A stretch of 50,643 nt of DNA from Candidatus Peregrinibacteria bacterium (GTDB lineage Bacteria; Patescibacteriota; Gracilibacteria; UBA1369; JABINC01), in contig JABINC010000008.1 in the NCBI GenBank assembly GCA_018697675.1, forward strand, positions 1-50,643, given 5' to 3'. The notes beneath the pieces were generated by a model, which made no database searches, was not told the origin of the DNA, and was given only the letters and a program-made list of their open reading frames with translations. A program made the position numbers and the translations under genes. Below are positions 21,368 to 35,403 of the stretch, in pieces (the first letter of the stretch is position 1; the number at the start of each line of letters is the position of its first letter).

Positions 21368-23923
21368 ATGTTAAGACGCCTCTGCCCACTAAATTGGTTT
21401 CAAATAGATGACGGTCAATGGTCAAGAATTTCAGTGTCATGGCTGGTAAGTTTCTTTTGTAGATTTAGTTTTATGCTCGGATGGACGGTAATCGTAGCGA
21501 TTTTCGTACACAGAATCGGCATCGAATCACTACCATTTCTATTTGTAGGAAACGCTATTTTGATGATGTGCGGAACGATGATTTTCTCAGAATTAATAAG
21601 ATTTATACGAAAGGAAATACTCATAATAACTACCTTAGTTCTAGCCGCCGTACTGATATTTGCAGCCACAACTTTCATATTACCCATAAGTGAAATAGGA
21701 TTTCTAATAACAAGTGTAATCGGGATTAGCTTATTCCTCGGTCAAGTAAATATATTGATTCAACTATTTGTAGAGGATATGTTCACTCCAATTGAAAGTG
21801 AAAGCGCATTCCCATTGATTGAAACAGCCGAAACGATCGGTGGTATATTTGCAGGGCTACTCCTAGCAACCGCCGGAAGCTTTATAGCCCCATATAAATT
21901 TCTATACATCTTGATAATCATATCACTCGCCATTATCCCAACCCTCAGCGCATTCAGCAAAACTGCACATAACGATCTCCCAAATCTAAATTTAAAAAAA
22001 CAAGGAAGACTCCGAGATATCAGTAAACTCCAACGTATAGAAGAAGGATGGGCAGAGATTAAAAAGACAAGCTTCCTACAAGCAATAGTCGTAGTAATAC
22101 TATGTCAATTTGTAATATTTAACTTAGTAGAATTTCAATACACAAAAGCCGTTCAACAAAAAGTATACAATGCACACGAATCAACCATAGTACAAGAAAC
22201 TCGAGCTCCAGAAATAATCCGCCTCGGAGATCATTCTATTGAATTAGCATCACTTGGACTACAGCCAGATACATATACCGTACGCACCCTCACAACTAAC
22301 AAACCCTCAGAGGCAACTTTAGAAAAACAGTTAGCTCACACTCTTGGACTATTCCAAATGATAATTAGTCTTTTCGCCTTAGCAACACAGTTATTCGTAG
22401 CGAGTAAAGTAGTAAAAAGCCTAGGAGTAGTGCAAAGTTTACTTGTACACCCGATTTTGATGTTAGCTAATTTCACACTAATGACACTGAAATTTAACAT
22501 CTCAACTGCAATGGTCGCAAAAACTGGATTTGAAATGACACGCTCAATATTTCAAACGTCATACCTCTCAAGTTACTATTCACTAAAAGAGGAAGTTCGA
22601 GAAGAAATCAAAGAATTCATGGAGGGGATCATCACTCCTATAGGAGCTGTAATTGGAACAATTCTAATATTTCTATTTCAATATCTACTTAGCGAAGCGA
22701 ATATCACACTCGGAATTAACATTGCAATGATATCAATGGCGGTCGTTATGGCATACGTCATTTACAACCTTCAAAAAGAATATACTGCAGTAAGCAGCGA
22801 AGCTCTTCATTTAGTAGATAATACAGCTGATAAACTCAATTCGATCGAGATCCTAAGCCAAAACGGACATACGGGAAATATACACATACTCATAAAAGCC
22901 CTAGATAGCCCGCTAGAAAAAAACATCGTGAAAATCAAAATACTGGAGGCATTGGGTAGACTCAAAAAGAAACGAGCAATCCCAACTATCATCAAATACT
23001 TAGAAAACCCCAGTAAAGACGTACAATTAGCAGCAGTAAACGCATTACTCCAATATGACAATATCGATAAACATTTTTTCCGAAATGCATTTGCAAGGTT
23101 TAGTATGGCGAAATCACTCAAAAGATTATTCGAAAAATCCTCTCCTATTGAAACCAAAGAAGCAATAATAAAAATTATGGCACGAATAAACAGACACGAT
23201 GTAGTCGAATATTTAGTAGAATTACTTGAGACAGCTCCAACTGAATTAAAAAGAGATTGTATCGGAGTGATCGGGCATTTCCATGACTTGAGCTCAATTA
23301 AATTCATAGAACCATTCCTCGATTCCAAGAACGTGGGACTTCAATGCGCAGCTATGGAATCACTATGGCAGTACGGAAAATACCGGGAGGAGTACAGAAA
23401 CAGAATTATAGAAGACTTGAAAACATTACTCCGTTCAAAAAAACAAGGAGAAAATATATATGCGCTAAAAACAATAGGAACGATAGGGCTACACCAATTC
23501 GAAGAATATGTGAAAAAATTAAGCTCTTCAAAAAAAATAGCTGTAAAAGAAGCCGCTCTAAAAACTCTCATACAACTACAAGATCATAATGCCATTAAGC
23601 CATTCGTCGAACTACTACTATCAAGTAAGCACAGTTACAAACGTATCAAGAAATATATGCATGGAGATAACGTTTCAGCAAAATTCAAGAAAGCAGTAGA
23701 ATTTGAAATTAACAAACAAGTAAGCAGAGAGATCCATGAAATATTCTTAAAAAACAATGAAAAAGTATTAGAGGAATTCACTGTAGAAGCCTTGAAAACG
23801 TTAAAGCATCTATACTCACTTATAGAAAAAGACCGCGAAGTTTTGAAAGTATCAGAAATAATTGAAGCCTCGGTTCGAAAACATGTCTACCGTTACGAAA
23901 ACCAAGCTTCAGCAACTACGTAA
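21368..23923 (+). CDS. Nucleotide-transporter-like membrane protein with HEAT repeats
   Basis: The first ~480 of 851 residues form a polytopic membrane domain of about 11-12 helices whose layout resembles Npt/NTT (ADP/ATP carrier-like) or MFS proteins. Suggestive segments include FVEDMFTPIESESAFPLIETAETIGGIFAG (early), and FEMTRSIFQTSYLSSYYSL with EVREEIKEFMEGIITPIGAVIG late in the domain, where NTT proteins have their signature. An extramembrane insert lies at about 250-330. From about residue 499 to 790 there are HEAT-type helical repeats (KIKILEALGRLKKKRAIPTI, AAVNALLQYDN, AAMESLWQYGKY). The SpoIIE-type phosphatase starts 2 nt after the stop. Transport substrate, or whether it transports at all, is unknown. 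Confidence 0.75.
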   Translation: MLRRLCPLNWFQIDDGQWSRISVSWLVSFFCRFSFMLGWTVIVAIFVHRIGIESLPFLFVGNAILMMCGTMIFSELIRFIRKEILIITTLVLAAVLIFAATTFILPISEIGFLITSVIGISLFLGQVNILIQLFVEDMFTPIESESAFPLIETAETIGGIFAGLLLATAGSFIAPYKFLYILIIISLAIIPTLSAFSKTAHNDLPNLNLKKQGRLRDISKLQRIEEGWAEIKKTSFLQAIVVVILCQFVIFNLVEFQYTKAVQQKVYNAHESTIVQETRAPEIIRLGDHSIELASLGLQPDTYTVRTLTTNKPSEATLEKQLAHTLGLFQMIISLFALATQLFVASKVVKSLGVVQSLLVHPILMLANFTLMTLKFNISTAMVAKTGFEMTRSIFQTSYLSSYYSLKEEVREEIKEFMEGIITPIGAVIGTILIFLFQYLLSEANITLGINIAMISMAVVMAYVIYNLQKEYTAVSSEALHLVDNTADKLNSIEILSQNGHTGNIHILIKALDSPLEKNIVKIKILEALGRLKKKRAIPTIIKYLENPSKDVQLAAVNALLQYDNIDKHFFRNAFARFSMAKSLKRLFEKSSPIETKEAIIKIMARINRHDVVEYLVELLETAPTELKRDCIGVIGHFHDLSSIKFIEPFLDSKNVGLQCAAMESLWQYGKYREEYRNRIIEDLKTLLRSKKQGENIYALKTIGTIGLHQFEEYVKKLSSSKKIAVKEAALKTLIQLQDHNAIKPFVELLLSSKHSYKRIKKYMHGDNVSAKFKKAVEFEINKQVSREIHEIFLKNNEKVLEEFTVEALKTLKHLYSLIEKDREVLKVSEIIEASVRKHVYRYENQASATT

Positions 23924-23925
23924 AA

Positions 23926-25008
23926 ATGAAACTATACAAAATAAAAAATAGCCTCAGCATAAAAGCACTACTCCACGTAGCGGTAATAACCGGTATAGGA
24001 GTCCCTTTACTCACATCAACAGGACAAGAATTATGGCTATCATTGACGCTCGTTGGGAGTATTTCAATTCTGTATTTACTCTTCATGTACTTTCACTTTA
24101 TAGCACCTCTAAAAAAGACCCTGCATGAAATGAAAGCCCTTTTAACAGGTAAAAGGTATCGGAGAATACTCACTCATCGAGTAGATGAGATTGGAGTAAT
24201 CGGGCACTTCTTCAATGAAATAACCCAAAATTTAGAAAGAATTTCTACAGACTTAAACGAACACAAGAGAATATCCAAAGAACTCAATGTAGCTCGCCAA
24301 ATTCAACAAAATCTAATCCCGCAAACCGCTCCAAGCAGCAAGGAATTAGATGTAGTCGCAAAAACAAAACCTGCAGAGGAAATCGGTGGTGACTGTTTTG
24401 ATTTTATGGAAACAGAAGATAATCTTTTCTTCTATCTTGGAGATGTGACCGGACACGGAGTTCCAGCGGGACTCGTAATGATCATGGTCGACACCCTACT
24501 CGATACATTCATAGACAAAAACATGAATACAAAAGACGTACTCATAAATACAAACAAATACCTGAAACCAAAGTTAAATACTGCTATGTTTATGACAATG
24601 GTTATGTTCAGATGGAACAAAAAAACAAAGACATTGTATTACACCGGAGCCGGACATGAGCATATCCTGATCTATCGCCAAAGTACTCATAAATGCGAAT
24701 CATTTCCAGCAGGAGGAATTGCCCTAGGAATGGTCCCCGACAACTCTGCAATGCTCGAAGAAAAAGAGCTCCCTTTTGAACCAGGAGATGTGCTTATAGT
24801 TTATTCGGATGGAATAACAGAAGGAGAGAACGCTGCAGGAGAACTATATGGCCTCAAAGGACTCAGCCTCGCAGCAGAAAAGTTTGGAAACCTTCCAGAA
24901 AGTTCAATGATATTCGATCAAATTTCCACACACTTTAGCGGCTTCCTTGAAGGGCATATACAAGACGATGATATGAGTATGATGGTCGTAAAACGAAGAC
25001 TGTCTTAA
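23926..25008 (+). CDS. Membrane-anchored SpoIIE-type PP2C phosphatase
   Basis: The 360-residue protein has two N-terminal hydrophobic helices (about residues 12-60), a HAMP-like linker (LHEMKALLTGKRYRRILTHR, DEIGVIGHFFNEI) and a PP2C/SpoIIE domain from about residue 125. Metal-binding Asp residues are seen in EIGGDCFDF, LGDVTGHGVPAGLVM and YSDGITEGEN, with DDDMSMMVVKR at the end. These enzymes dephosphorylate STAS antagonists such as the one at 12.8 kb. It is coupled to the transporter-like/HEAT gene, which may control it. The last 4 nt overlap the convergent ATP-grasp gene. Confidence 0.9.
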   Translation: MKLYKIKNSLSIKALLHVAVITGIGVPLLTSTGQELWLSLTLVGSISILYLLFMYFHFIAPLKKTLHEMKALLTGKRYRRILTHRVDEIGVIGHFFNEITQNLERISTDLNEHKRISKELNVARQIQQNLIPQTAPSSKELDVVAKTKPAEEIGGDCFDFMETEDNLFFYLGDVTGHGVPAGLVMIMVDTLLDTFIDKNMNTKDVLINTNKYLKPKLNTAMFMTMVMFRWNKKTKTLYYTGAGHEHILIYRQSTHKCESFPAGGIALGMVPDNSAMLEEKELPFEPGDVLIVYSDGITEGENAAGELYGLKGLSLAAEKFGNLPESSMIFDQISTHFSGFLEGHIQDDDMSMMVVKRRLS

Positions 25009-27458
25009 GCCTTTATAAACTTAGGCAAATACTTTGGCTTTTTCAATCCTGGGAGTTTTTTGATCCAATCAACATCATGCACACTGATCTTCCCCATATA
25101 AAGATCTTTTAGGTCTCCACCATCACCAACGAATTTTTGAATATCTTTGTATCCTTTGTAGTAGATATAATCTTTCGTAAACACCCCCGGCTGACTGGTA
25201 TCTTCAAGTCCTCTTTTAAGCTTGAGAGCAATTCTAAACGACTTTTCCTCAGAGAAGCCGAGATCTTTAACAAAATCATAGATATCTCGAAAACTGCCCT
25301 TTGCCCCAACTTCCGTCGCAAGAACAATTGCATGAGGCACAACATTAAAGAATTCTGGATCATCCTCAAGTGCAGTATTTGTATTATAGATTGCAAGCCC
25401 CTCCTGAGTTTCAAGATAATTAGCGGCCCCTCTGTTAAAAACCCCATAAGGCTGCCTTTTACCATTTTCCGCAGATAAAATATGAGTCTCAATTTCATGA
25501 GCAATAAGCGCTTTAATTCGCACTTCATCAAACAACGCGTCTTTGCGGACAAAAAGAGCATTTTTCTTACCAGCAACACATCTAGAAACAAGATCTTCTT
25601 TTATCTTAGCTTTCCATGCAATATGATAGCGTTTAAAAACTTTATCAAAAGCCTTAACTGCCATCTCTGAAGTTAGATTCCCACTACTCTCATCATCCAG
25701 ACACGCGTCAGCGTGTCCCTTTTCTTTCTGATCTTTAATAAGATCTTCAAACTCCTCCTTTGCACCCGCTTGGATCCCTTCATCTGGATAACCATAAAGC
25801 TCCTTAGAACACTGCATGAAATCAGATGTCCCACGCTTTTCAAGCAAATTTACTTTTTTCAAAATTTCTTCTTTTTTCTCCCTAAAAAGTCTCCCATAAG
25901 GTGAGTCATCTACTATAATCTCCTTCAAATCCTTCTTCATTTCATGAATATCAAATTTTAAATCTGGATAAACAAATTGAGGATTGTATTTACTGTCTTC
26001 AAAGAATTTATCGCGCTCTTCATTAAGGTTCAAAGGCTTCAGGTGATAAAGTAACTTGATCTTACTATCAAGCGCATTCACAGCTTTATCTATTTCTGCA
26101 AAATTCACCTTCGATTTCCCTTCTCCTATTACGTTGATCTTTTTTTTCTTAGAACCCCCTCCCTCTGTATCAGGAAGCTTAACAACCCCCTTCTTAGAAG
26201 GGTCAACCAAGAAATGATTTGCAACATCCTTCCTACCAACAATCATTTTATGCTCTTTGTCTGAAAGGTCTTCCACAACAGCCAAGGTTTGAATTCGTTT
26301 CTCAGAAAGCGAAAATTTTATACGAACTTTTTCAACATCTCCAGAAACCCCCTCTTCTACTTTGAAAAAGTCTGCATAAGATTTATCAATAATCGTGGAA
26401 TCAAGTGCCGTATTTATACGAGCTTTTAACTTCGAAGAACCTCCATCTGGCAAAAACAACGCCACCTCTTCTTCCACACCAATCACCTCTTTCCCAGAAA
26501 TACTCTTTATCTCCTTATCAAGCTTATTACCAAACATATCCTGAGCAACGCGAACTCCCTTTCCAGGGTTTAACACTTTGATACCTTTGATACGCTCAAG
26601 CCTACGTTTTAGAGGCGCAAGATTGGCAATCTGCACAGCAAGCCCAGCTCTAGCATTCATCTCGAGCAGTACGGGCCCAGTATTTTTATCTACAACCAGA
26701 TCCACGGCAAGATAACCAATATTTGTAATCAATTGAATTCTAGAAGCAATAAGCAGCATTTCATCCCAATATGGGATTTTCAAATTTCGGATATCTCCCC
26801 TACCCGGCACCTCATCAATAATCCTATTATGATGCATGATATGAGTGGCATACCCCGTGGCAATATCAATTCCCACTCCAATCGCACCAAGGTGCAGATT
26901 CGCCTTTCCATCGGACGCTTTGGTCGGAAGGCGTAGCATAGCCATGACAGGAATCAGATTATGCACAACTATACGGATATCCGGCAACCCCTTATAAGCA
27001 AATTCCGCTATAGATTCCTCACATTCAATCAACTGCTCAAAAAAGGCTGTATCTCTCTGATTCGAAAGGGAAAATCGCCCATCTATAATATCTTCAATAT
27101 GTGATCGAAGTGTATCAATTCTTATTGTTTTCCCAGAAGCTGTTTTGAAACCTTTATCATTTTTTCCTTTAATTACGATAATTCCTTCGCCCCCATACCC
27201 ATAGTTTGGCTTAAGCACAAATTTATCTGGCAATACATTAAAATCAAATTTCTCTAATCCCTGACGATCTTTTATCACATGATAAAGCCTCGGCACCGGG
27301 ATATCTCGAGCGGATAGAAACTGCTTTGTCCTAGTCTTATTATCTGCAAGTTTCACAGCTTTTCTAGAATTATAAGCCTTAATATACGATAGATTTCTCG
27401 CATTGATCCCAAGCACCCCTATTTTGTTCAAACGAGCAAAGCTCTTAAAAAGATTCAT
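25005..27458 (-). CDS. ATP-grasp ligase / retropepsin-like / MATCAP-type peptidase fusion
   Basis: Three domains are visible in 817 residues. Residues 1-315 match the RimK-related ATP-grasp family (TIGR02291/ATPgrasp_ST): NKTRTKQFLSARDIPVP, FVLKPNYGYGGEGI, MAMLRLPTKASDGKANLH, and LLEMNARAGLAVQIAN with the metal-binding Glu/Asn. Residues about 330-440 resemble the RimB-type aspartic peptidase family (PF05618): VIGVEEEVAL, LKARINTALD where active members have DTGA, MIVGRKDV, FLVDPSKKG. Residues about 455-800 match DUF1704/MATCAP: HEIETH (654-659, the HExxxH zinc motif) and TQEGLAIYN (QEGLA signature, 685-689). It could attach and trim an amino-acid or peptide tag; the target is unknown. It is the last gene of a three-gene operon. 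Confidence 0.85.
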   Translation of the reverse strand: MNLFKSFARLNKIGVLGINARNLSYIKAYNSRKAVKLADNKTRTKQFLSARDIPVPRLYHVIKDRQGLEKFDFNVLPDKFVLKPNYGYGGEGIIVIKGKNDKGFKTASGKTIRIDTLRSHIEDIIDGRFSLSNQRDTAFFEQLIECEESIAEFAYKGLPDIRIVVHNLIPVMAMLRLPTKASDGKANLHLGAIGVGIDIATGYATHIMHHNRIIDEVPGRGDIRNLKIPYWDEMLLIASRIQLITNIGYLAVDLVVDKNTGPVLLEMNARAGLAVQIANLAPLKRRLERIKGIKVLNPGKGVRVAQDMFGNKLDKEIKSISGKEVIGVEEEVALFLPDGGSSKLKARINTALDSTIIDKSYADFFKVEEGVSGDVEKVRIKFSLSEKRIQTLAVVEDLSDKEHKMIVGRKDVANHFLVDPSKKGVVKLPDTEGGGSKKKKINVIGEGKSKVNFAEIDKAVNALDSKIKLLYHLKPLNLNEERDKFFEDSKYNPQFVYPDLKFDIHEMKKDLKEIIVDDSPYGRLFREKKEEILKKVNLLEKRGTSDFMQCSKELYGYPDEGIQAGAKEEFEDLIKDQKEKGHADACLDDESSGNLTSEMAVKAFDKVFKRYHIAWKAKIKEDLVSRCVAGKKNALFVRKDALFDEVRIKALIAHEIETHILSAENGKRQPYGVFNRGAANYLETQEGLAIYNTNTALEDDPEFFNVVPHAIVLATEVGAKGSFRDIYDFVKDLGFSEEKSFRIALKLKRGLEDTSQPGVFTKDYIYYKGYKDIQKFVGDGGDLKDLYMGKISVHDVDWIKKLPGLKKPKYLPKFIKA

Positions 27459-27469
27459 TTAAACCAAAG

Positions 27470-29155
27470 TTAATAGACTTCTTCCAGGTAACACTTGTCG
27501 CAGTATACAGCTTCTTCCCTATCAGGACCATAGGTACTATACATACCTTCTCCACATTTCGAACAAGCGGATCGAAAAAGATAAGGCTGATGATTAATTA
27601 ATGAAAAACGCATTTGATGCCGTCTCTCTGGACATTGTCGCGGCAGCGGGATTCCCATTTTTTTATAAAAAGCCAGCTCCTTCTTGATAATTCGATAATT
27701 TTTTCCCGTATCAGAACAAGCTAAAACCTCATTACAGATACTTTCATCAATATCATTCACATTATCCGGAATATTTGTGATAGTAGCAGGCTTGTACTCT
27801 TTCCCATCTCTTGGAAGCCACCTGAGCCCTCTAGAAGTTGCCTCAACCTCAGCTAATGGCAAGAAATCCTGTGCACAAGTCTCATTGTAAGCGAACGGAA
27901 TCGCCTCTGGCGGAAAAAACAAACCATATTCCGGCCCCGCCTTGGAGGGACTTTCCCCCTGTATCGGCTTCTTCATATGTTCTATAATTTTCGGAAGTAT
28001 CTCAAAATACTCCTGTTCGGAGTATTGCTTATTCAAAATACAATATTTCTTCCTGTGCAAACTCACACATCCAAAACAGTGCTCACAATTCACGCATCCA
28101 TCGCAATATCGAATATTATTACAAAACCACACATGCATCGAATAAGCCACATTCGTACAACCACGAACAGTCGAAGAAGTATGAACCACTTCAGCAGCCG
28201 GCCACCCTACAGAGTAACCGCTATAAACATCTTTAGAGTCCCCGAGGGAAACGCAATGCTCACAATCTTCACACCCACCATAGGATTCATAGGAATTAAA
28301 ACAATTCTTACAATCAAATAAATGCTGCCCTACTACATTTTCACTTCTCAAATTCCGAGTTCCACGATGCAAAGCACTTTTTCTCATATCAATATAACGC
28401 TGATAAGCCTCCTGCCACCTCTCATAAGAACCATTTAAATAATAAAATTTCATCTCTTCAAATTCCTTCTCACTGCATGGTTTATTGAAAATATGATATT
28501 CCTTATTAACTAAATTGCTACAGAAAAGACAATTTTTACACCCCCTCAGTTGGAAAGAAAAACAACAATCATGACAATTGCCAGATTCTTCAAGGCATAC
28601 ACAGCCATAACTGTTTTCAACATGAGTGCACCAATAAAAAAGCTCACTATCATGTGAATATGCAGAATCAAAAATATCCTTGCTACCAGGAGTCCAATAC
28701 GAATAATAAACATCTTCTGAATTCACCATCAAGGCACTTAAATAGGAGTTCCGAGAAGTTCTGGCATGGCTATTATAATCACAATTTTCACAATTGAAGA
28801 TAGATGTACCTTCACGTGGTGCGACTTGCTGCAATTCTATAAATTGCTCAAAAAATGGCCTGTCAAAATCAAAATCTCGTCCATAATCAGTCCCTTCCCA
28901 ACTATCCCCCCACCAAATCTCATTTTTATAAACTGTATAAGAACTATCCTCATGATATGCACTCAAAATACGCTCTCCAGTAGCATCACATTTACGATGA
29001 TAAAGTTTCCATTCATTGCGAGCACTCATCGTCTGTCGGATTCTTTCAATCGGACCTATATCAGGCAGCGGAATTCCCAAAACTTCACAGGTTTCAATCT
29101 CTTTGTCAGAAACCGTAAATGAAGCACCAGTAATTTTACACTTTTTTGTAATCAT
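27470..29155 (-). CDS. Cys-rich zinc-ribbon-type protein, unknown function
   Basis: The 561-residue soluble protein has dozens of Cys, mostly as CxxC pairs (CENCDY, CKNCLFC, CKNCFNSY, CEDCEHC, CVNCEHCFGC, CSKCGEG, CDKC), which would bind several zinc ions or clusters. Two related blocks containing LNKxxSExEY/F occur (NKPCSEKEF, LNKQYSEQEY). The N- and C-termini also resemble each other: GIPLPDIGPIERIRQ with SAYHED near residue 60, and GIPLPRQCPERRHQ with STYGPD near the end. I know similar unannotated proteins from CPR genomes but no function. Its start overlaps the 7TM gene by 4 nt, and the ATP-grasp gene starts 11 nt after its stop. Confidence 0.75.
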   Translation of the reverse strand: MITKKCKITGASFTVSDKEIETCEVLGIPLPDIGPIERIRQTMSARNEWKLYHRKCDATGERILSAYHEDSSYTVYKNEIWWGDSWEGTDYGRDFDFDRPFFEQFIELQQVAPREGTSIFNCENCDYNSHARTSRNSYLSALMVNSEDVYYSYWTPGSKDIFDSAYSHDSELFYWCTHVENSYGCVCLEESGNCHDCCFSFQLRGCKNCLFCSNLVNKEYHIFNKPCSEKEFEEMKFYYLNGSYERWQEAYQRYIDMRKSALHRGTRNLRSENVVGQHLFDCKNCFNSYESYGGCEDCEHCVSLGDSKDVYSGYSVGWPAAEVVHTSSTVRGCTNVAYSMHVWFCNNIRYCDGCVNCEHCFGCVSLHRKKYCILNKQYSEQEYFEILPKIIEHMKKPIQGESPSKAGPEYGLFFPPEAIPFAYNETCAQDFLPLAEVEATSRGLRWLPRDGKEYKPATITNIPDNVNDIDESICNEVLACSDTGKNYRIIKKELAFYKKMGIPLPRQCPERRHQMRFSLINHQPYLFRSACSKCGEGMYSTYGPDREEAVYCDKCYLEEVY

Positions 29156-30708
29156 TCTTCTTCCGCATAATGACTAAACACCTCTCTAAATCGCACATAT
29201 TCAACAATTCGAAGACCTTTCCATCTTCCCAGGAATACATTCACCACTAGGAGTGCAAATACAATTTCAGGATAAGCAAGTACCATTGTACGAACATAAG
29301 CGCTATCAGCAACTAAATAAGCAATTAATGACACTATTATAACCTCAACCATAATCCCTGAAGCGGTTTTCAAGCCCTTGTCTCCAACAAGACTAATACA
29401 TCTTTCAACCACACTGATCAAAAGAAACATTGGGAAAATCGAAATCGCAATTATCTGCGTAACATTGAAAAACGTACCAAGCATAAGAAGAACTAAAATC
29501 AGAAGACTTACAACGATCATCACAAAACTCATACGCGGAATATACATCATCCTATAACGCTTAATAAACCGCCTGGTAATCAGAGAAATAAGCAGTATTG
29601 CAAGTAATATAAAAAGCCCAAACCACACATCCAAGGCAATAAAAGAAATTGCAAGCATAGACGGGGTATAAACCCCCAACGTATCAAGTCCAATTACCTG
29701 CTTCATAAACGAAACCACAGTCACAATCACAGAGAGTACAAGTACCAAACGAACCGTATTACTAGGAACTCCATGATTGATCATATAATTGATAAAATAC
29801 GACATGAAACGATGAACCTTAAACTTGGTAGGACTACTTATAATTCCAAATCCAATTCCTCGTGATTTCAATATTTCTATGAACTCCGCTGCATCTTCAG
29901 CATCTACATCTAGAGATTTGAGCAGAGGGAATCGCGCCTCGGAATGAGTAATAATAATTCGATTTGGCTCAACACTATCAAAAGTACCTTGAGCAATATT
30001 TTCAAGACCAGAAAGATTTCCTTCAGTAATAAACATAATATCTTTATTTGAGAAATCAATAAGGTTAGACGGCAAAGCATTGCGGAGCTCAGAAAGCAAT
30101 GTCGCCCCAAGCGATCCTTCAGTCCAAAACATAATAATATCCGCATCCTTTATCTGCCGCTGCCCATCTATCAAATCCTGAAGCAATTCTTCTTCCACAA
30201 GAAACTCGGAAACCCCACCAACAGAATGAAAATTACTCACAACAGTATTTTGCTCCCTGGCTGCATTCATAAATCCTTCAATCATCTCGAAGTCCACACT
30301 CTGATCACTCACAAGCAAGATATTGTTATTATAAACAAAAATATTCTTCTCAATCTCAGCACTCTGCCCTTTGCCATCTATACTCAAACTCACCACATAA
30401 TCTCCAGGTGTAGCATAATTGTGGGCCACCTCAGCCCCAAACTCATGCTTCCCATCCCCAAAATCCCACTCAAATACAAAATTATTCAACTCTGATTGCG
30501 GAACAGAACCCGTTGCATCCAAAATCAGTTTCCTACTAACAGCCACCTCATCAACAGAATCAATCTGGATTTCAATCTGTGGAGCAGGAGTGACCCCCTC
30601 CCCTTCATCAGCAGCAAAAGCGATATTGCAAATTCCCAAGAAAAACACTGCCACCAAAACCCCAACAAACGATTTTTTGAGAACCCTACAAAAAGAATTT
30701 TTAATCAT
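29152..30708 (-). CDS. PKD plus 7TM_transglut-like membrane protein
   Basis: From the ATG at 30708 the 518-residue protein has a signal peptide (about 1-33, ending IAFAA), a PKD-like domain (LDATGSVPQSELNNFVFEWD, FGDGKHEFG, HNYATPGDYVVSLSI), an alpha/beta extracytoplasmic region (about 125-310) and seven C-terminal helices. The helices fit 7TM_transglut (PF14402): MKQVIGLDTLGVYTPSMLAI, RMMYIPRMSFVMI, ISIFPMFLLISVVERCISL, and the closing LGRWKGLRIVEYVRFREVF. Known relatives carry an inactive transglutaminase where this one has PKD. Relatives of this domain are typically encoded beside RimK-related ATP-grasp genes, as here. The upstream ATG at 30747 would extend ahead of the signal peptide. Confidence 0.85.
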   Translation of the reverse strand: MIKNSFCRVLKKSFVGVLVAVFFLGICNIAFAADEGEGVTPAPQIEIQIDSVDEVAVSRKLILDATGSVPQSELNNFVFEWDFGDGKHEFGAEVAHNYATPGDYVVSLSIDGKGQSAEIEKNIFVYNNNILLVSDQSVDFEMIEGFMNAAREQNTVVSNFHSVGGVSEFLVEEELLQDLIDGQRQIKDADIIMFWTEGSLGATLLSELRNALPSNLIDFSNKDIMFITEGNLSGLENIAQGTFDSVEPNRIIITHSEARFPLLKSLDVDAEDAAEFIEILKSRGIGFGIISSPTKFKVHRFMSYFINYMINHGVPSNTVRLVLVLSVIVTVVSFMKQVIGLDTLGVYTPSMLAISFIALDVWFGLFILLAILLISLITRRFIKRYRMMYIPRMSFVMIVVSLLILVLLMLGTFFNVTQIIAISIFPMFLLISVVERCISLVGDKGLKTASGIMVEVIIVSLIAYLVADSAYVRTMVLAYPEIVFALLVVNVFLGRWKGLRIVEYVRFREVFSHYAEEE

Positions 30709-33282: not shown

Positions 33283-35403
33283 ATGAAAAAACTATTAAAT
33301 AGTTTGGCAATTGCTGCAATTGGACTAGGCCTCCTAACTGGAGTCGCTTTTGCTGCATCTTCAAGCCCAATCGATTTACAATGCGATGATATAATTGCAG
33401 GATATTCTTCAGGAGTAGAACTAAACACCTTAAAGGATACTTCTATAAGTTTCATGTTAGAAACTCCAAATGGCAGAAAGGTATACTTACAAGAAAAAAG
33501 CGACAAGGAAGGTGAATTGGCCTTACAAATAGCCGATTATCACCTGCAGGCAGCAGGGCCTTATGCAGTTTCAGCACGATTTACAGAACAAAATGAGGAT
33601 TTTGGCCAAAGATGCACATTTACAGTTTATCCATCAGACGTTTCTACAACTAAATCCTTATTATCAGTAGATCAAAAAACTGCAGAAGCTGGATTACTCG
33701 AAAACATAGTCGCCGAAGTACACCTTAGAGATGATTTCGGAAATTCTATAAAAGGACATTCCGTTGAATTATTATCTAGCCGAACTGAGGATTCTATACA
33801 ACTTCTATCTCACCTTCCATACACAGATGACAATGGCGCAATATCATTTCTAGTAAACTCAGAAGAACCTGGGATGACTACTTTATCCGCTATAGACCTA
33901 ACGGAAGATATAACTCTTAATGCACGTACAAAGATAGCTTTCCTAGAAGCTAATAGCGAAAACCCAATCGGAGGAAATTCAGAGAATTTCAATTATGGAA
34001 ACTACTTTGATGATGCGAGTATTTTCTTATCAAGCCTCGAAGACACTGGGGAAATATATGAATTCATAATAGAAATTCGAGATGAAGGAAGTGAAGACGT
34101 AGTCACAGAAGTAATGAAAAACTCAGCTCTTTCAACAACAGTTACGGCCCTAGATGAGCTAGGAAACATAGTACCAAACTACACCGGAGAAATACGATTC
34201 TCTTCAACAGATGACAATGCCGCTCTTCCAGAAGATTATAAATTCACAAGTGGGGACCTTGGAACTCATGATTTCGACCTAGGAATTACGTTCAAGACAG
34301 AAGGTCCACACATCTTAAGTATAAATGATACTGAGAATTTTTCACTCAAAGGAGAAGTTGAATTAGAAGTTAAGCCAAAGGAAATTACAGCCACCCCGGA
34401 CCTAAACAGAGAAATTAATCTAATTTCACCAAAAGAAGGAACGTTTAGTAAAAATACAATCGATGTAAGCGGAACCACTGCAGTAAACACAACCGTCCAA
34501 ATCTACGACGAAGAAACCTTAAAAGAAGAAACTATCAGCGACGAGAGCGGGAAATTTGCAACTGCTTTGAAAGACCTAGAAGAAGGTACTCACAAAATAC
34601 AAATTAAATCACTAAATGAAGAAGGGGAAGTTGCAAGTGAATCAGCGGAAATAAGAGTAGATATCGACACGGTTGCCCCAGTTATAGAATTATTCGAAAT
34701 ATCTCCAGAAGGAACGCTAGAAGCTGAATCTGAAGTGACGGTCACCCTCACCTCAGAAATGGGACTTGATAAAGTTTCTCTACTCTTCGAAGAGCGCATA
34801 ATTGAGCTCACAGAGAGCTTAGAAACCCCTGGATCATACGAAACCACTTTCCCAGCTCCAGCAGAGACAGGAGAGTACAAATTAGACGTAGTTTTGAAAG
34901 ACACAGTAGGCAATGAAGGCTCATTCCCTGAGCAAAGTATTTTGAAAGTACAAAAAGACGAAATAATCATCCCAAGCATAGTCACTGAAATTAGTGCAAT
35001 CGAATCAGATTCCAGAATAACCCTAACATGGGCAGCGGCCGAAGATGACACTTACATCACACGTTACAAAATCTCATATGGGTACGCTTCAGATAAATTA
35101 TACTTGAGCGCCCAAACATTTGACTCTAGTACTACTTGGTACATCCCGGAATTGGAAAATGGACAGGAATACTACTTCGGTATCCAAGGAATCGACTCAG
35201 AAGGCAATGAAGGAGAAATGAGCGAACTTATAGCATCTACTCCAATGTCTCCAGAACCAGAGCTCCCAGCTAGCCTAGAAGACCCAATAATTCTCGAAGA
35301 GCTACCTCCAACCAATCCAGAAACCGGCCCAGAACTATGGTTTATGATCATAGCTTCTCTATTAATTGCGGACATCTTCTATAGAAATAGGTCACGCGCA
35401 TAA
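33283..35403 (+). CDS. Secreted multi-Ig/FN3 surface protein with NPETG-type anchor
   Basis: The 706-residue protein has a signal peptide (1-25), several beta-sandwich-like domains, and an FN3-like domain at about 565-655 (ITLTWAAAEDDTYITRYKIS, WYIPELENGQEYYFGIQGID). Mid-protein stretches such as VDVSG-type IDVSGTTAVNTTVQIYD and ADGAPVIELFEIS-like VAPVIELFEISPEG fit bacterial Ig-like repeats. The C-terminus has NPETG (about residue 679), a hydrophobic helix (LWFMIIASLLIADIF) and a basic end (YRNRSRA), the layout of a sortase-type sorting signal. No sortase gene is in the window. A role in adhesion to a host or partner cell is plausible but unproven. Confidence 0.75.
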   Translation: MKKLLNSLAIAAIGLGLLTGVAFAASSSPIDLQCDDIIAGYSSGVELNTLKDTSISFMLETPNGRKVYLQEKSDKEGELALQIADYHLQAAGPYAVSARFTEQNEDFGQRCTFTVYPSDVSTTKSLLSVDQKTAEAGLLENIVAEVHLRDDFGNSIKGHSVELLSSRTEDSIQLLSHLPYTDDNGAISFLVNSEEPGMTTLSAIDLTEDITLNARTKIAFLEANSENPIGGNSENFNYGNYFDDASIFLSSLEDTGEIYEFIIEIRDEGSEDVVTEVMKNSALSTTVTALDELGNIVPNYTGEIRFSSTDDNAALPEDYKFTSGDLGTHDFDLGITFKTEGPHILSINDTENFSLKGEVELEVKPKEITATPDLNREINLISPKEGTFSKNTIDVSGTTAVNTTVQIYDEETLKEETISDESGKFATALKDLEEGTHKIQIKSLNEEGEVASESAEIRVDIDTVAPVIELFEISPEGTLEAESEVTVTLTSEMGLDKVSLLFEERIIELTESLETPGSYETTFPAPAETGEYKLDVVLKDTVGNEGSFPEQSILKVQKDEIIIPSIVTEISAIESDSRITLTWAAAEDDTYITRYKISYGYASDKLYLSAQTFDSSTTWYIPELENGQEYYFGIQGIDSEGNEGEMSELIASTPMSPEPELPASLEDPIILEELPPTNPETGPELWFMIIASLLIADIFYRNRSRA

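Follow-up and report, generated by a model that had tools for sequence, protein, structure and literature searches.

The window, the whole stretch of DNA analysed here, comprises 50,643 nucleotides from a Candidatus Peregrinibacteria bacterium (assembly GCA_018697675.1, contig JABINC010000008.1, forward strand, positions 1–50,643). Three open reading frames of its minus strand, at 29152–30708, 27470–29155 and 25005–27458, follow one another with a 4-nt overlap and then an 11-nt gap; an earlier note on this DNA had described this arrangement, and its coordinates are confirmed. That note read the three frames as an operon. However, the conserved unit consists of two genes only: the gene of a membrane protein with PKD, alpha/beta and 7TM parts, followed by the gene of an ATP-grasp–retropepsin–MATCAP protein. 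In the congeneric genome G001 this pair stands without the third gene, the 7TM gene directly preceding the ligase gene with a gap of 9 nt. The two genes are neighbours in almost every locus, and the pair recurs throughout the order and the CPR phylum. In 20 of 20 checked genomes of the class that have no ligase, the 7TM domain is also absent (PKD-type matches only), which indicates that the two genes were lost as a pair.

The gene inserted between them (27470–29155, minus strand) encodes a Cys-rich product of 561 amino acids with 36 cysteines and 13 CxxC motifs, for which a Pfam search gave no family above cut-off. It belongs to a multicopy family whose members are often clustered (G000:C38); the expansion of this family is large and unexplained. 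We consider it very improbable that all three genes form one functional operon, with the Cys-rich protein as a working partner and with three catalytically active domains in a single chain. The overlapping and abutting frames of the window speak for such an operon, but the gene is found at this position in none of the other loci examined, so that the three-gene order, which the earlier note proposed to survey in CPR genomes, is seen in the window alone. The family furthermore numbers 22 copies in the 1.46 Mb of this genome and 0–26 in relatives, including genomes without the ligase, and one of the three supposed catalytic domains, the retropepsin, has lost its active site. The Cys-rich gene is an interloper in the unit, and its role as a conserved partner is refuted.

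The flanking genes (SpoIIE phosphatase, MFS-HEAT protein, QueA, CysS, RibAB/RibD, EF-Ts and MurJ) were rejected as partners because they reflect synteny at the level of the order and do not stand beside the pair where other lineages have retained it. Downstream of the pair, a convergent block at 21368–25008 is conserved in much of the order. It encodes the MFS-HEAT protein and the SpoIIE-type PP2C phosphatase, with a STAS protein in relatives, and looks like a partner-switching signalling module. At 33283–35403, a 706-residue protein with bacterial Ig-like and fn3 domains is syntenic beside CysS across the order.

Domains of the fusion protein and its membrane partner

The second gene of the unit (25005–27458, minus strand) encodes an 817-residue fusion of an ATP-grasp ligase, a degenerate retropepsin and a MATCAP metallocarboxypeptidase. 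The ligase domain (residues 21–291; 26586–27398, minus strand) matches PF14397 (ATPgrasp_ST) above cut-off with an E-value of 2e-66. Its metal-site motif LLEMNARAG is intact, E266 and N268 being invariant. The match to TIGR02291 (E 6e-86, 288.4 bits) lies under the equivalog cut-off of 314.2, and TIGR02421 also matches the protein, likewise under its own equivalog cut-off. The MATCAP domain (residues 486–816; 25011–26003, minus strand) matches PF08014 (DUF1704) with an E-value of 5e-57. Both motifs that the earlier note had called intact are indeed so: the metal-binding and catalytic HEIETH (residues 654–659; 25482–25499, minus strand), which aligns with HEIGTH of human MATCAP, and QEGLA (residues 685–689; 25392–25406, minus strand), which aligns with its EEGLA and provides the glutamate as third metal ligand. 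HE[IV]ETH is present in 31 of 31 fused proteins, and QEGLA is also conserved in the fused relatives.

An AlphaFold2 model of the 817-residue protein (mean pLDDT 84) agrees with this assignment. Its top structural match is human MATCAP (7z5g; Z 25.6, with an rmsd of 2.7 over 286 residues). The ligase domain finds RimK (Z 16.3) and the complex of ArgX with LysW (Z 17.1) among its best matches; MATCAP and RimK are the two proteins on which the earlier note proposed to superpose a model. The ATP-grasp domain may be a glutamate ligase acting on a protein C-terminus, and the MATCAP domain a carboxypeptidase acting on acidic C-terminal tails. The earlier note took the full fusion together with the Cys-rich partner to be undescribed. 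The fusion is not unique to this genome, its full-length form occurring in 38 of the 59 genomes of the order and also in other CPR lineages; we found no report of a MATCAP fusion or of an -EE partner tail in the literature searched, the 2009 amidoligase survey excluded.

Between ligase and MATCAP lies the degenerate retropepsin domain (residues 323–420; 26199–26492, minus strand), in which the flap is deleted and N349-T350-A351 (26406–26414, minus strand) replaces the catalytic Asp-Thr-Gly. The domain has no PF05618 match of its own in the Pfam search. Its alignable relative L124 does match this family (32.1 bits against a cut-off of 27), and a profile of intact relatives finds PDB chains 9g59/9g58 at E 6e-9 and, weakly, the ApRick and DDI1 retropepsins. 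The retropepsin-like character that the earlier note saw is upheld through the relatives. Since NTA stands for DTG and the flap is missing, the window's retropepsin is almost certainly inactive as a protease, and on this ground we reject two active peptidases in one chain.

The first gene (29152–30708, minus strand) encodes a membrane protein of 518 residues. It begins with a hydrophobic helix or probable signal peptide (residues 1–34; 30607–30708, minus strand), as judged from hydropathy and from a helix at residues 3–24 in the model. A PKD domain follows (residues 42–117; 30358–30585, minus strand; PF18911, E 2e-11; Foldseek match to the PKD domain of ColG), then an extracytoplasmic alpha/beta domain delimited by the secondary structure of the AlphaFold2 model (29839–30327, minus strand), which has no transglutaminase match in Pfam. 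The 7TM_transglut-like domain noted earlier is borne out (residues 316–494; 29227–29763, minus strand; PF14402, E 2e-29). With Foldseek, the 7TM part has no known fold, matches being to PKD domains and weakly to alpha/beta ones. The charge distribution (positive-inside rule) puts the C-terminus on the cytosolic side, with the ligase. The protein terminates in EVFSHYAEEE, and RFREVFSHYAEEE is the peptide end that stands for this tail. Its last three glutamates (GAA GAA GAA; 29155–29163, minus strand) form the proposed acceptor.

Covariation of MATCAP coupling, retropepsin motif and 7TM tail

For the survey of loci within CPR genomes, we call a locus coupled when MATCAP is either fused to the ligase or operon-adjacent. 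Among 142 distinct relatives, the D[TS]G motif is intact in 73 of 73 loci that are not coupled in this sense, against 10 of 69 coupled ones (7/61 fused, 3/8 adjacent); these counts, like those of the tails below, are of genomes and not of evolutionary events, the traits clustering by lineage with few independent events. A flap-like motif is found in 1 of 61 fused proteins and in 35 of 55 without MATCAP. MATCAP seems to have replaced the aspartic peptidase.

The tail of the 7TM partner follows the same division. It ends in -Glu-Glu in 57 of 65 coupled loci and in 1 of 69 others; by class, the ending is present in 52/57 with fusion, 5/8 with adjacency, 1/17 with MATCAP only nearby and 0/52 with none. 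Only 4 of 656 other proteins at these loci end in this way. Of the first eight operon-adjacent cases, five have lost the catalytic aspartate, and -EE is present in exactly these; the remaining three keep DTG and lack the ending. The segment that follows the conserved GLRxxExxRF motif is of variable length, 8 to 26 residues, and the -EE end is constant.

Exceptions occur in each direction. Six coupled loci have lost the motif and have no -EE (L076, L078, L187, L188, L191, L265), and eight loci of the first set together with L228 have -EE despite an intact motif. Adjacency of MATCAP alone is insufficient because L081, L082, L090 and, among the further genomes fetched for the prediction described below, L254 (with an intact DTGA) keep DTG and have no -EE. 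Two other arrangements may be mentioned. In family f38 (L095 2983–9285 and similar loci), the ATP-grasp–retropepsin protein has DTG without the following Ala, the MATCAP gene lies about 3.6–7.4 kb away on the opposite strand, and the 7TM tails are without -EE. At L092 (G138), the 7TM partner ends in EEEEEEEREEE, DTG is intact and MATCAP is 1.9 kb away on the other strand; this may be an intermediate state.

Could the glutamate codons be no more than an in-frame reading of the ligase gene's Shine-Dalgarno sequence? The 7TM stop does lie near the ligase start in most loci. However, the codons are GAA in 90 cases and GAG in 26, -EE persists in 10 loci where the gap between the two genes is 57–1693 nt, and the loci without MATCAP have equally short gaps and no such ending (0/52). 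Codon use and gap lengths lead us to reject this explanation, whose probability is close to nil.

A prediction was set down before further genomes were fetched: the six new coupled loci would have -EE and a lost D[TS]G, the others neither. As it turned out, -EE is present in 5 of the 6 and D[TS]G is lost in 6 of 6, while the uncoupled new loci keep the motif in 61 of 61 cases and are without -EE in 60 of 61. The single uncoupled exception is L228, whose contig spans about 440 nt downstream of the ligase, too short to show the MATCAP state. Since the new positives belong to clades that had been sampled before, this result speaks for consistency within clades and not for added origins.

Independence was examined on a tree of the ligase domain. 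Fusion labels change at least twice on well-supported branches, one change concerning the window's class together with its close relatives and another G277/G329, which belong to another order. In the separate family f58 (with f147), MATCAP is the next gene and Asn takes the place of Asp; this family and the window's class lie far apart on the tree. Coupling as such requires only 5 changes on the tree, and tests on independent pairs give about 2 supporting pairs and 0 against (p 0.5), falling short of significance because only 4–7 pairs are informative.

This small number of events bears on a further alternative, which we regard as distinctly unlikely, namely that the substrate is another protein, a lipid or a cell-wall peptide and that the tail covaries with MATCAP for unrelated reasons or by shared ancestry. 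The loci come mostly from a few clades, and the tree permits few independent events; moreover, rlo mutants of Pseudomonas show cell-wall-like phenotypes (PMC12239564). On the other side, -EE and the loss of Asp are combined both in the window's class and in the distant f58/f147, and in part in the order of G277/G329/G630, and the association among the first eight operon-adjacent cases is exact.

The proposed tail cycle and known systems

As a variant, the unit belongs to the known kind represented by RloB/RloC and RimB/RimK. We favour, at a probability of roughly 0.55, a two-gene writer/eraser in which the -Glu-Glu tail of the 7TM protein is lengthened by the ligase and shortened again by MATCAP. 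The RimK/ArgX-like ATP-grasp domain would ligate amino acids, most likely glutamate, onto the encoded cytosolic -Glu-Glu of the co-encoded 7TM protein, and MATCAP on the same chain would trim the added residues back as a metallocarboxypeptidase. The length or charge of the tail may thereby tune what the 7TM protein does in the envelope. In the ancestral form of the unit in CPR, the eraser was probably an active retropepsin of the RimB/RloA type. MATCAP would have joined the operon in some lineages and been fused more than once, and in these the catalytic motif and the flap of the retropepsin are mostly gone. The degenerate domain may plausibly have been kept for a role without proteolysis, in stimulating the ligase or in docking. 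Beside the observed architecture, motif status, operon pairing, co-loss and covariation of three traits, we infer catalysis, the identity of the substrate, its covalent modification, the residue added and a physiological role. The earlier idea of a membrane tag added and removed by ligase and peptidase is supported and made specific by the 7TM tail that tracks both MATCAP coupling and the loss of the retropepsin active site; the retropepsin, being degenerate, is no second active peptidase.

A competing explanation leaves the 7TM tail itself unmodified. The -EE end would be a docking, priming or product-mimic peptide which recruits the enzyme to the membrane. What the enzyme makes and trims would be free poly-alpha-glutamate or some other peptide, to be moved or sensed by the 7TM protein. 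Under stimulation by RimB, RimK does produce free poly-alpha-glutamate, and RpsF was not glutamylated by RimBK (PMC11957791). RloB and RloC share a pathway with an envelope peptidase that cleaves polyglutamate (PMC12239564), and the covariation of -EE with MATCAP is equally compatible with docking. Yet there is no need for a docking motif to lie at the very C-terminal end after a linker of variable length, whereas carboxypeptidases and C-terminal ligases require a free terminus. We judge this explanation unlikely, though to be taken seriously.

The association of ATP-grasp, 7TM and retropepsin proteins is already known from rloABC of Pseudomonas aeruginosa, where RloA is a secreted retropepsin, RloB a 7TM protein with an inactive transglutaminase domain and RloC an ATP-grasp protein (PMC12239564). 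Loss of rloB or rloC suppresses the loss of RloA peptidases in this organism, which places the RloC ligase and the RloB 7TM protein in one pathway (PMC12239564). The unit described here shares with rloABC the adjoining ATP-grasp and 7TM_transglut genes and a retropepsin of the RimB/RloA type. It differs in that the retropepsin is internal to the cytosolic ligase chain and degenerate instead of a secreted, active RloA, in the added MATCAP carboxypeptidase, in the -EE end of the 7TM protein, and in the PKD and alpha/beta ectodomain where RloB carries its inactive transglutaminase domain.

In the Rim system, RpsF, whose encoded end in E. coli is ...GDSEE, receives Glu at its C-terminus from RimK, while RimB both removes polyglutamate and stimulates RimK; a RimB–RimK fusion has been published (PMC11957791). 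RimK/RimB and the RimBK hybrid (PMC11957791, PMC7343187) share with the present unit an ATP-grasp of the glutamate-ligase kind, a retropepsin of the polyglutamate-removing family and an acceptor, here a proposed one, that ends in Glu. In the hybrid, however, the order is RimB and then RimK, the acceptor is RpsF, and there is neither a MATCAP nor a 7TM partner.

The suggested eukaryotic counterpart is the tubulin tail, with TTL/TTLL enzymes as ATP-grasp writers and MATCAP/TMCP enzymes as erasers. TTL attaches Tyr to alpha-tubulin at its -EE end. The MATCAP fold and the HExxxH and EEG motifs are common to both, as would be the pairing of an ATP-grasp writer with a MATCAP eraser at an acidic tail, whereas the present system is bacterial, joins both predicted activities in one chain and, in tubulin's absence, would act on the tail of a membrane protein. 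From tubulin, MATCAP/TMCP enzymes cleave off C-terminal Tyr, Glu and polyglutamate (PMC10499314, PMC13269789). For their bacterial relatives, the QEGLA/DUF1704 proteins, we found no established role in the literature searched.

A carrier-protein system offers one more comparison. LysX and ArgX act on the C-terminal Glu of LysW, a small carrier protein, and the linkage they form is through the side chain (gamma-carboxyl). ArgX/LysX with LysW (PDB 3vpb) is the best ATP-grasp structural match of the window's ligase; LysW differs in being a carrier of amino-acid biosynthesis, with no MATCAP.

What looks new here is the loss of the retropepsin motif with MATCAP coupling and the -EE tail of the 7TM partner as coupled traits. 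Whether CPR bacteria, which are tiny and uncultivated, possess a full parallel to the tubulin cycle, with a one-chain writer/eraser acting on a 7TM -Glu-Glu tail, an aspartic eraser replaced more than once and -EE coevolving, is a tentative proposal to which we give slightly less than even odds. If the 7TM -EE tail is the substrate, a MATCAP peptidase would be tied to an amidoligase in bacteria without tubulin, and the joint travel of 7TM and ATP-grasp genes would be explained. It would also provide a candidate target class for rloBC, which in Pseudomonas influences osmotic tolerance and the sensitivity to antibiotics. The -EE end of the 7TM partner is a concrete and directly testable substrate candidate.
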